DNA of 64,000 nucleotides from NCBI GenBank assembly GCA_021847015.1, contig JAJZVW010000006.1:1-64000 (forward strand). Reading direction: 5' to 3'. The position numbers were made by a program, and so were the translations under genes. The notes beneath the pieces are model-generated. The model saw only the letters and a program-made list of their open reading frames with translations, did not search any database and had not been told where the DNA came from. This document shows, piece by piece, positions 41,134 through 62,066 of this stretch. Every line of letters begins with the position of its first letter. Position 1 is the stretch's first letter. The stretch comes from Pseudomonadota bacterium. Its GTDB lineage: Bacteria; Pseudomonadota; Alphaproteobacteria; Rhodospirillales; Magnetospirillaceae.

Positions 41134-41276
41134 CAGCGGTTATCATCATGCGTTTTTCGATGTCATCCCGAGCCGAAGGCGAGGAATCTTTCACGCGAAA
41201 GTGCCTGAAAGATCCCTCAGTCGCTCCGCTTCCTCGGGATGACATCGTCAATGCGGGCGCATAATGAGAACCGGGG
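41134..41276. repeat. Palindromic MITE-like element, full copy B
   Basis: Outer ends CAGCGGTTATCATCATGCG and GCATAATGAGAACCGGGG enclose the common core. Perfect 9-bp direct repeats GCCCGAGGG flank it at 41125-41133 and 41277-41285. The right-hand duplicate supplies the GAGGG Shine-Dalgarno site of anmK. Confidence 0.85.
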
Positions 41277-56813: not shown

Positions 56814-56937
56814 GAATCCTCCTAATGTGGGCTTTGCGCGGGACCCGCGGACCCGGCGCCGTCGGCGGCGGCGTGAACGGACGCGCCGGTAGTTATATTG
56901 AACGGCTCCCCATCGGTCAAACCGGTTGGACCTGCTC

Positions 56938-57081
56938 CAGCAGTCCTCATTATGCATTTTTCGCTGTCATCCCGAGCCGACGGCGAGGGATCTTTCAGGC
57001 ACCTTCGCGTGAAAGATCCCTCTATCGCTCCGCTCTCTCGGGATGACACCATTCCTTGGTGCCGCATAATGAGAACCGCTG
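56938..57081. repeat. Palindromic MITE-like element, full copy C, inserted in a gene end
   Basis: Outer ends CAGCAGTCCTCATTATGC and GCATAATGAGAACCGCTG enclose the core. Perfect 9-bp direct repeats GACCTGCTC flank it at 56929-56937 and 57082-57090. The right half of the element is read as the last codons and stop of the quinone oxidoreductase gene on the minus strand. Confidence 0.92.
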
Positions 57082-58083
57082 GACCTGCTCGCCTCGCACA
57101 ACGAGGACGATCTTTCCTATATGTGCGTTCGACTCAATCAGTCTATGGGCATCGGCCGCCCGGTCCAAAGGATATGTGGCATGTACCACTGGACGAATGG
57201 TCCCCGCTCCGATCAGCGGCCAGACATTCCGCCTGAGCGAATCGGCGATGCGCGCCTTGGCCTCGCCGGATTGGGGGCGCAGCGTCGAACCGGTCAGGGT
57301 CAGGCGCTTGACCATCACCGGCATGAAATTCACCTCGGCGGTCGATCCCTTCATGAAGGCGATGAAGACCAGCCTGCCTTCGGCCGCCAGAGCGCGGATG
57401 TTGCGGGGGATGTCGCCGCCGCCCACCATGTCGAGGATGACGTCGACACCCGTGCCGCCGGTCTCGCGCTTGACCACATCGACGAAATCCTCGGCGCGGT
57501 AGTCGATGGCGCGATCGGCGCCGAGCGAGCGGCACACGTCCAGCTTGCCGGCGCTGGCGGTGGTGAAGACGGTGGCGCCGAAAGCCTTGGCCAACTGGAT
57601 GGCGGTAATGCCGATGCCCCCGGCGCCGCCGTGGACGAGGATGCGCTCGCCCGGTTGCAGGCGGCCGCGCTCGAACACATTGTGCCAAACCGTGAAGAAG
57701 GTTTCGGGCAGGGACGCGGCCTGAACGAAATCCAGGCCTTCGGGCACCGGCAGGCAATGGCGGGCATCGGCCGCCACGTATTGGGCATAGCCACCCCCGG
57801 CCACCAGAGCGCAGACGGATTGCCCCAGGCCGGGCCATTCCGTGCCGTCGCCGACGGCGACGACGGTGCCCGATACCTCCAGGCCCGGCAGGTCCGACGC
57901 GCCGGGAGGAGGCGGGTAGGAGCCTTGGCGTTGCAGCACGTCGGGACGGTTGATTCCGGCGGCGGCCACGGCGATCACCACCTGGCCCTTGCCGGGACGA
58001 GGCGTCGGCCGTTCGGCGGAACGCAGGACTTCGGGGCCGCCGGGATGGGCGATTTCGATGCAGGTCATGTGGTCGGGCAGCAT
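57022..58083 (-). CDS. NAD(P)H quinone oxidoreductase (zinc-independent MDR, PIG3 type)
   Basis: This 353-aa medium-chain reductase likely reduces quinones with NADPH. GINRPDVLQRQGSYPPPPG is the PIG3/QOR signature; LPGLEVSGTVVAVG and the Rossmann motif LVHGGAGGIGITAIQLAKAFG follow. No zinc ligands are visible, as expected. GGAGGGGACG precedes the ATG. The last 17 or so residues (QRFSLCGTKEWCHPERAER) are encoded by an inserted palindromic element; without it the protein would end GEQVQPV. It is divergent from the DUF1192 gene. Confidence 0.93.
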   Translation of the reverse strand: MLPDHMTCIEIAHPGGPEVLRSAERPTPRPGKGQVVIAVAAAGINRPDVLQRQGSYPPPPGASDLPGLEVSGTVVAVGDGTEWPGLGQSVCALVAGGGYAQYVAADARHCLPVPEGLDFVQAASLPETFFTVWHNVFERGRLQPGERILVHGGAGGIGITAIQLAKAFGATVFTTASAGKLDVCRSLGADRAIDYRAEDFVDVVKRETGGTGVDVILDMVGGGDIPRNIRALAAEGRLVFIAFMKGSTAEVNFMPVMVKRLTLTGSTLRPQSGEAKARIADSLRRNVWPLIGAGTIRPVVHATYPLDRAADAHRLIESNAHIGKIVLVVRGEQVQRFSLCGTKEWCHPERAER

Positions 58084-58157
58084 CGTCCCCTCCGATTGTG
58101 CGGTGCGAGATGAGTCTGTTACGTTCACAAAGCGAAGGCAAGTGCGGAGGCGGCGTC

Positions 58158-60447: not shown

Positions 60448-61528
60448 ACACGCGCGCGATGAAGGCCGCCACGTCGGGAAGCGGGGTTTCGGGGCCGATG
60501 CCCCCTTGCCGGGCATGGCCGATCAGTTTCTTGATCATATCGGGGTTGGCCTCGTCGCCGAAGACGCGTCCGAAGGCGCCGCTCCCCATGCTGCCGTAGG
60601 CCGCGAGCAACACGACCGCGAGTTGGTCGAGGCGCAGGCCGAGGCCGCCGGCCAACGCCGACCTTGGGCCGTCGGCGACGGTTTCGAGGACGGATGCGGG
60701 ATGGAAGCCGACGTTGCCGCTCTCCAGCGCCCTGCGGACCTCCGCCGACAGCAAGGCATCGGCGAAGCGGGCGCCGGCCGTCCCATCGTCCTCGGCGCCA
60801 AGGGCGGCGCCGCCGGATATCGCCGACGGCAGGGGCTGGGGGGCGGATTCGGGCAGCGGCCGGTCGGGGTCGGCCTCGACCGCCAGGCCCGGAGGCAGGC
60901 CGAGCGCCTTGGCCAGTTTTCTGGGGCAATCGTAGTCCAGCAGATGACGCCCCAGCGTCTGGACCTGGGTCGGGGTCATCCGCGCGTAGGTGGGCACCAG
61001 GGGCACCTGCCAGTCGTAAAGCAGGTGGTGCTTGATGCAGTCGTACAACTCGTCGGCCGGGGACCGCACCGTTGTTCCGGGCTGCCGTTCCGCGGTGGCG
61101 GCCGTCAACAGGCGCATGCGTCCCAGCAACCCGTCCCGCCGGCGGTTGTCGGAAGGCTGGGGCGGGGGGGCGATACCCAGCTGCCGCCGGAAATACCGTC
61201 GAGCGGCGGTGCAAACGATCATGGCCACCACCTGCTCCAGGCTGCGCCCGCACGCCAGGGGCGTGACGTCGTCGGTGACCGCGCGGCCGGACGCGTCAAC
61301 CAGAACGTCCCCGAAATGGGAACGCTGCGCGCGGAAGGTGATGAAGCAGCGGTGGAGGAGATGGACGCTGCCGATGACATGGTCGTAAGCCATGTCCTCA
61401 GGCACGTCCGACAATTCCGGCATCAGCCGTCGCAGGGTTCCGACGACCGGTCCCCTGAGGGTCGCCCGGATGATTCTGACCGGTTCCGCCTCACGGAAAA
61501 AATCAGCAGATACTGCCGTGGCATTCAT
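60416..61528 (-). CDS. Uncharacterised 370-aa protein
   Basis: There is no signal peptide or transmembrane helix. Recognisable segments are only descriptive: VIGSVHLLHRCFITFRAQRS, CGRSLEQVVAMIVCTAARRY, HLLYDWQVPLVPTYARMTPTQ and a C-terminal helical region (LDQLAVVLLAAYGSMGSGAFGRVFGDEANPDMIKKLIGHA is split over two helices). Coding is supported by length, composition and a GGGGGAC site before the ATG. The family is not recognised. It shares a 32-base 3' overlap with rcdA. Confidence 0.7.
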   Translation of the reverse strand: MNATAVSADFFREAEPVRIIRATLRGPVVGTLRRLMPELSDVPEDMAYDHVIGSVHLLHRCFITFRAQRSHFGDVLVDASGRAVTDDVTPLACGRSLEQVVAMIVCTAARRYFRRQLGIAPPPQPSDNRRRDGLLGRMRLLTAATAERQPGTTVRSPADELYDCIKHHLLYDWQVPLVPTYARMTPTQVQTLGRHLLDYDCPRKLAKALGLPPGLAVEADPDRPLPESAPQPLPSAISGGAALGAEDDGTAGARFADALLSAEVRRALESGNVGFHPASVLETVADGPRSALAGGLGLRLDQLAVVLLAAYGSMGSGAFGRVFGDEANPDMIKKLIGHARQGGIGPETPLPDVAAFIARVFSRVRTAPPG

Positions 61529-61639
61529 ACCGTCCCCCCGGGCCAAGCCCCGAGCGCCGCCGGCTCCCCAGCGTGTGCGTAATCCCCATTCGAACTGTGG
61601 AGCGGGTATGGCGCGGTGTCAAGCCAAACGGGGAGGCGA

Positions 61640-61783
61640 CAGCGGTTCTCATTATGTGGCATCAGGGCATGTTGTCATCCCGAGGGGGCGGAGCGACTGA
61701 GGGATCTTTCACGCGAAAGTGCCGGAAAGATCCCTCGCCGTCGGCTCGGGATGACAGCGAAAAATGCATAATGAGAACCGCTG
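61640..61783. repeat. Palindromic MITE-like element, full copy D
   Basis: Outer ends CAGCGGTTCTCATTATG and CATAATGAGAACCGCTG are a 17-bp perfect inverted repeat around the core. Flanking 9-mers GGGAGGCGA (61631-61639) and GGGAGGCGC (61784-61792) match at eight of nine bases. It is part of a 605-bp gene-free stretch (61529-62133) made almost wholly of repeats. Confidence 0.9.
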
Positions 61784-61792
61784 GGGAGGCGC

Positions 61793-61993
61793 CCAGGGCT
61801 CCGAACTCAGGTTTCGAATCGGTCAATGTCATCGTCCACCCCCCCCTGTCATCCCGACAGAGCGACAGCGACGAGGGATCCTTCAGCCGCTGGCGGCTGC
61901 CGTTCGTGCCTGAACGATCCCTCGCTCCGCTCGGGATGACACCATCATTCGCGGGGGCGTCAAGGATTCGGTCATCTGAGTTCGGAGCCCTGG
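61793..61993. repeat. Second palindromic element type sharing the same core
   Basis: CCAGGGCTCCGAACTCAG (61793-61810) and CTGAGTTCGGAGCCCTGG (61976-61993) are a perfect 18-bp inverted repeat. Between them lies the core palindrome (TGTCATCCCGA arm, GAGGGATCCTTCA, GAACGATCCCTCGC, CGGGATGACA) also found in the first element type. GGGAGGCG occurs immediately on each side. Confidence 0.88.
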
Positions 61994-62002
61994 GGAGGCG
62001 AC

Positions 62003-62066
62003 CAGCAGTTCTCATTACGGGTCCGACACGCCACAATTCCCCCTCTCCCGCGGTGCGGGAGAGGGG
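62003..62066. repeat. Orphan left terminus of a third element plus strong hairpin
   Basis: CAGCAGTTCTCATTA (62003-62017) is the left end of the first element type without a matching right end. It is followed by CCCCTCTCCCGC/GCGGGAGAGGGG, a 12-bp stem with a 3-base loop (62040-62066). The hairpin lies 68 bases after the cyclase stop and may terminate it. Confidence 0.65.

Follow-up and report, generated by a model that had tools for sequence, protein, structure and literature searches.

Insertion-sequence ends around a pair of tagged palindromes: a MITE at the end of a quinone oxidoreductase gene in an alphaproteobacterial genome

The window, by which we mean the whole 64,000-nucleotide stretch that was analysed, carries on its minus strand a quinone oxidoreductase-like gene of 368 codons (57022..58128; ADH_N, ADH_zinc_N and ADH_zinc_N_2), followed on the same strand by trcR (PF06242; 56229..56813). 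A 144-bp element occupies positions 56938..57081 and thus overlaps the present end of the oxidoreductase gene. An earlier note on this DNA had placed the element between identical 9-bp flanks, and this is borne out: both flanks read GACCTGCTC (56929..56937 and 57082..57090), and the ends of the element are inverted copies of each other, CAGCAGTCCTCATTATGC and GCATAATGAGAACCGCTG. Each terminal inverted repeat (TIR) is 18 bp long; the one on the plus strand (56938..56955) has two mismatches to the consensus, and the one on the minus strand (57064..57081) is to be compared with the minus-strand consensus CAGCGGTTCTCATTATGC. The identity of the flanks extends two bases beyond the 9 bp (TGGACCTGCTC), which we take for chance because the family to which the element belongs shows duplications of 9 bp. 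Between the TIRs lies a core of two inverted palindromes with outward GTCAT tags (56966..57047). In the family consensus the two palindromes of this core are likewise inverted, their TGTC tags point outward and TGTCAT stands at both ends; TGTCAT is also present on both sides of the core in this copy. The element is predicted to fold into a hairpin of -91.7 kcal/mol, as against -53.7 kcal/mol (sd 4.0) for 200 shuffled sequences (z = -9.6); no Rfam family matches anywhere in the window at gathering thresholds. Being short, bounded by TIRs and devoid of a transposase gene, the element is a MITE without genes of its own, and we refer to its family as A. It differs from the family consensus at 11 of its 144 positions and is for that reason probably one of the older copies.

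The oxidoreductase gene now ends ...GKIVLVVRGEQV-QRFSLCGTKEWCHPERAER-stop, that is, in GEQV followed by residues encoded by the element. The gene does run into the element, as the earlier note had stated; the tail, put there at about 17 residues, comes to 19. Removal of the element together with one repeat gives ...GKIVLVVRGEQVQPV-stop, or GEQVQPV-stop, exactly as had been proposed. The reconstructed stop (TGA) falls within the -35-like TTGACC (56915..56920, minus strand) of a TTGACC-17-TATAAC promoter-like sequence of trcR, the -10-like TATAAC of which is at 56892..56897 (minus strand). Among 37 relatives examined, out of 80 fetched, trcR lies within 600 bp downstream of the oxidoreductase gene in 35; the TTGACC/TATAAC-like sequence is present in 25 of these 35, and in 11 of the 35 the stop lies inside the trcR -35 box at exactly the reconstructed offset. 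None of the 35 ends in GEQVQPV, and several of the closest relatives end in GKIVLTV or GKIILTV. Relatives thus agree with the predicted empty site in the position of the stop but not in the final residues. These residues are therefore this lineage's own, though the restored layout does occur in relatives; the genus is represented by a single genome. The empty-site case is stronger at a second family A copy (C10:122261-122404), which lies within a gene for a GIY-YIG endonuclease that now ends in 24 element-encoded residues. Without this copy and one 9-bp repeat the gene would end in ...KKWRRVWKIALVQCDNPQWRDLYNDILR, which can be aligned with the gene ends of four relatives in which the gene is intact.

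Family A is abundant in this genome. At up to three mismatches, the consensus TIR was found 103 times in forward and 103 times in reverse orientation in the 3.59 Mb genome, and the control gave no hits in either orientation. First-look searches yielded 292 and 301 candidates, of which 40 were scored in each case; at least 11 copies are identical to the consensus among the 40 scored from the 301. In addition to the copy at the oxidoreductase gene, the window holds a copy at 61640..61783 with flanks GGGAGGCGA and GGGAGGCGC (8 of 9 positions matching), an older one at 41134..41276 with four TIR mismatches and perfect flanks GCCCGAGGG, and one at the contig start (1..142), the left flank of which is not present. 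Target-site duplications were counted over 53 copies with two recognisable ends, a selection that favours well-kept copies: the flanking 9-mers match perfectly in 33 and at 8 or 9 of 9 positions in 41, as compared with none of 2,756 mismatched flank pairings reaching 8 or more. Twelve copies fall below 8 of 9, among them L015 and L025, which are flanked by a repeat of 10 bp. The enrichment of identical 9-mers that had been anticipated for genomic copies is thus found, and these family-wide counts support the view of the earlier note that the element is mobile and duplicated a 9-bp target site on insertion. Direct observation covers the ends, the number of copies, their duplications and, at two copies, the logic of the empty site. 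Within the order, the A end joined to the GTCATCCC core was found in only one of 317 genomes, namely this one (60 and 70 sites), by an exact pattern that diverged relatives would escape.

The A end itself is more widespread, and at up to two mismatches it occurs in 11 of 55 genomes of the family. In one of these (G011) it bounds a 1,431-bp IS with the left end CAGCGGTTCTCACTATGG and a 9-bp duplication, ATGCCGTAG, on both sides, so that the MITEs share their ends with an autonomous IS, albeit one found in a relative and not in the same genome. One end of this IS agrees with the A consensus at 16 of 18 positions, and the other is a loose match (12 of 17). Its protein matches DDE_Tnp_1 just at the cut-off (23.2 vs 23 bits) and gives IS4-type matches that lie below the NCBIfam cut-offs. 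The protein was found in three of the 55 family genomes, and relatives of 31-45% identity occur on 14 plasmid records, one of them annotated as ISNCY. Two IS copies on Calothrix plasmids that encode such relatives are bounded by CAGCAATTCTCATTTT ends and by perfect duplications of 9 bp, GAAATATAC and GTTATCTAT. Taken with the G011 element, these copies indicate that this transposase group is associated with A-type ends and duplications of 9 bp; the joint occurrence of such ends, such duplications and an ISNCY-like transposase in one IS is likewise a direct observation. Our genome gave no match to the G011 transposase and none to PF01609 (control positive in 9 of 14 genomes). As it is assembled in 77 contigs, a repeated IS could be missing from it, and the partner transposase of shell A may have been lost from this genome or may be unassembled.

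Three other candidates for the mover were rejected. An IS belonging to this genome seemed possible at certain TIR sites, which turned out to be MITE copies holding other insertions (L111, L123 and L126). ISAs1 does not account for shell A, as there is no match to PF13808 in this genome (control positive in 3 of 14) and the partner of A is another transposase. A RAYT was also considered: the sole Y1_Tnp (RAYT-type) gene found in the genome (L166, C48:82530-82853) lies in a 3.3-kb locus from which this palindrome is missing, so that the arrangement typical of REP/RAYT systems, a RAYT gene flanked by the palindrome, is absent there. As to the insertions within MITE copies, L111 (2569-3600) has an IS1-like transposase gene in a MITE-A core (NF033558, 74 bits, below the cut-off of 100). 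L123 and L126 (1-171 in each) have a foreign sequence in common, and in both it begins at one and the same position of the MITE-A core, which suggests a site-specific IS.

A second family, B, about 195-200 bp long in this genome, has the same kind of core as A within unrelated ends, CAGGGCTCCGAACTC. One copy lies in the window at 61794..61992 with 10-bp flanks that match at 9 of 10 positions, and 5 of 8 B copies in the genome have flanks matching at 9 or 10 of 10; chance B pairs (L179, L009 and window 61433-61992) were left out. At up to two mismatches the B end is found in 32 of 55 family genomes; control hits in 11 genomes mean that only those with multiple copies carry weight, namely G000 (32 and 27) and G030 (17 and 15). 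Among 18 B-end stretches in relatives, 10 have one end and eight have both. The latter comprise three IS, two of 1,270 bp and one shortened, together with five elements from four genomes that contain CGTC-type palindromes. The B-ended IS encodes an ISAs1-family transposase (NF033564, 355.5 bits; L206 38-1307). In L206 its flanks are identical over 10 bp; in L191 the contig stops within one of the two flanks. Flanks agree at 9 or 10 of 10 positions for four of the five elements with palindromes, but not for the 186-bp element in L205. Shell B thus shares its ends and its duplication length with ISAs1 IS, as expected of an ISAs1-derived MITE, and PF13808, which would mark its ISAs1 partner, has no match in this genome. 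In both families the ends and the duplication length are those of an IS, ISAs1 (10 bp) for B and ISNCY-like (9 bp) for A; the MITEs differ from these IS in having a palindrome pair in place of a transposase gene.

The palindromes themselves resemble the CGTC-tagged group, in the account of which given in PMC3733652 (2013) the tag is often TGTC, the palindromes occur mainly as outward-tagged pairs and most are in alphaproteobacteria. The A core agrees with that account in its TGTC tag, the group allowing CGTC, TGTC or CCTC, in its AT stem base, in its outward pairing and in its host. In the group the stem runs uninterrupted for 8-9 bp, the loop has 4-5 bases and the tail is mostly CCA; the A core departs from this, since by eye it has a 5-bp stem, a 2-base mismatch and the tail CTT. 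With its stem interrupted and its tail different, the A core belongs to the group only in part; palindromes that agree with the group in stem, loop and tail are found in the B elements L195, L204 and L205 of relatives. In the same account these palindromes 'apparently lack a dedicated transposase'.

Palindrome pairs were also sampled irrespective of their shells, over 464 kb made up of the window and 20 further stretches. Of the 21 pairs found, 12 are still bordered on one side or both by an end of type A, with no more than 6 mismatches in 17 positions. By chance 32 of 3,000 random 45-bp stretches match as well, and with the orientation reversed the figure is 1 of 42 sides; family B accounts for two further pairs, and seven have no recognised shell. 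Many of the bare palindrome pairs in this genome therefore look like decayed MITEs. The shell can also hold another core: in L138 (G010) shell A surrounds a CCCTCTCCC-type palindrome with perfect 9-bp flanks, and the flanks of another such locus, L145, match at 8 of 9, with L147 a doubtful third case. In L137 of the same genome G010, from 3047 onward, an A-type end is followed by a CGTC palindrome pair with no recognised second A end.

In all likelihood, then, family A is a MITE family moved by an ISNCY-like partner. It would be a non-autonomous transposon in which IS ends surround a pair of inverted TGTC-tagged palindromes, and a DDE transposase of ISNCY-like type recognising CAGCGGTTCTCATTATG-type ends would have moved the element in trans. 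This mover was presumably a relative of the G011 transposase that has been lost from the genome or lies in unassembled sequence. At the locus examined here, the element would have inserted among the final codons of the oxidoreductase gene, at a point 17 bp upstream from the trcR -35 box, and duplicated 9 bp. The palindrome pair would ride as cargo and outlive the ends, so that many bare pairs may be decayed MITEs, and the protein tail is probably a by-product of the frame of entry.

Comparable systems have been described. MITEAba12 (PMC6382973), as described there, is also short, shares its TIRs with an IS, makes 9-bp duplications and can bring about a premature gene stop; it differs from family A in that its IS is in the same genome and its core is AT-rich, whereas for family A the IS is found only in a relative and the core consists of tagged palindromes. 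The Coxiella elements QMITE1 and QMITE2, as presented in PMC5896051, likewise overlap gene ends and supply the last residues, with QMITE duplications of 7-9 bp. Short QMITE2 copies that resemble extragenic palindromes are read in that source as truncated MITEs. The palindromes there are referred to one MITE family, whereas here there are two unrelated shells with identified IS partners. Gene ends supplied by MITEs are thus already in print in these two sources. What is new here is the presence of tagged palindrome pairs within two kinds of IS shell and the association of such palindromes with small GIY-YIG genes. As the two shells occur in one genome with clean duplications, and as intact, half-decayed and bare copies form a series, the spread of the palindromes can be put to the test.

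The link with GIY-YIG genes rests on a survey with a home-made palindrome detector. Among 50 GIY-YIG loci that are not uvrC-like (30 supplied loci plus 20 hand-picked rows with open frames of 88-292 aa, irrespective of shared ancestry), 23 have a CGTC/TGTC palindrome within 350 bp of the GIY-YIG domain and 27 have none; palindromes lie on both sides in 12 of the 50, and 10 have an outward-tagged pair. The same palindromes are found at none of 20 uvrC-like loci, these being rows hand-picked by frames over 600 aa without individual checks of uvrC identity, and the background, obtained with the same detector, was 9 in 514 kb of 80 named loci. Such palindromes are seen beside GIY-YIG genes among loci L209-L258 (e.g. 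L221, L237 and L239), with L017 and L258 in this genome. The GIY-YIG gene interrupted at C10:122261-122404 is itself flanked by a CGTC-type palindrome pair, and in two 479-bp B elements of G003 (L195 and L204) a GIY-YIG reading frame lies between two palindromes. As judged from sequence, the small GIY-YIG enzyme is a candidate partner of CGTC/TGTC palindromes by association, not by function. Literature searches combining 'GIY-YIG' with 'extragenic palindrom' returned only PMC9465073, with the terms in a gene table and a reference, and neither the letters GTCATCCCGAGC nor RAYT together with REP and alphaproteobacteria was found in the papers searched; in the available text of the RepRanger paper (PMC12306157) 'CGTC' appears once, in a reference, and GIY-YIG, MITE and RAYT are absent.

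It is plausible that IS shells answer the question of how CGTC palindromes move. We tentatively propose, as an idea that could well prove wrong, that CGTC/TGTC palindromes have two vehicles. As pairs they would travel inside at least two unrelated DDE IS-end shells (ISNCY-like with 9 bp and ISAs1 with 10 bp), the hairpins remaining as extragenic palindromes after the ends decay; in addition, modules of palindrome, small GIY-YIG gene and palindrome would be the group's own coding unit, a counterpart of RAYT for GTAG palindromes.

The most serious alternative is that mobility resides in the palindrome pair itself, which might move with the aid of small GIY-YIG endonucleases, for instance, and has repeatedly entered IS or MITE shells, which then spread it. 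We regard this as rather unlikely. It would explain why the same kind of core sits in two unrelated shells within one genome, and it accords with the frequency of palindromes near GIY-YIG domains relative to uvrC-like loci and with the layout of L195 and L204; however, there was no case of a pair inserted in a shell that is intact in other respects. The GIY-YIG link, moreover, is one of association rather than activity, among loci that may have common ancestry, and the palindromes beside the two flanked GIY-YIG genes of this genome are tagged CGTC, whereas those of the MITE core are tagged TGTC.

The earlier note was correct that the element can donate a tail, as the 19 residues at the end of the oxidoreductase demonstrate, and had likened this to the Rickettsia palindromic elements, with which family A does share the property of being a short palindromic repeat able to become protein sequence; RPE-4 and RPE-6 are even placed in the CGTC group in the account of PMC3733652. 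In the descriptions in PMC3733652 and PMC10969869, however, Rickettsia elements are in-frame insertions within reading frames that leave the frame open, whereas family A has IS-type ends and duplications and the frame of the oxidoreductase gene closes within the element. The same holds for 22 of the 25 gene-like frames entering a family A copy, and several frames are used; these counts are rough, the codon score behind them being of our own making and its cut-off low (it is passed by 25 of 106 approaches). In the oxidoreductase frame the family consensus would give 43 residues and this copy stops after 19, which, together with the varying frames, indicates that the tail follows the frame of entry. 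There is no sign of selection for the tail, and it looks incidental. The likeness drawn to Rickettsia is therefore not supported, and an element of that type, kept for a useful peptide added to proteins, is very improbable, even though the oxidoreductase and other gene-like frames do end in element-encoded residues, given that family A has the ends and duplications of a MITE.

Chance repeats or an assembly error can be dismissed as scarcely credible: contigs of this genome do often end in MITE-A copies, but 11 differences from the consensus in 144 positions mean that the copy at 56938-57081 is not a collapsed repeat, the order of the oxidoreductase gene and trcR is common to 35 of 37 relatives, and 33 of 53 copies have perfect duplications. 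Many contigs start or finish in MITE-A sequence, as the window does at 1-142, which indicates that the assembly breaks at the element and that a full IS could be hidden there.

Copies of the two families are also found close together. At 61640-62017 of the window, a MITE-A copy is followed by a MITE-B copy and then by another A-type end. Near-identical repeats, GGGAGGCG(A/C)(C), stand between them, which looks like insertion of elements at one another's ends. A and B copies lie near each other in L020 and L158 as well. In L124 (1-280), a palindrome pair is bordered to one side by an A-type end and to the other by the inner portion of a B-type end; it is possibly an A/B hybrid that arose by exchange within the shared core.
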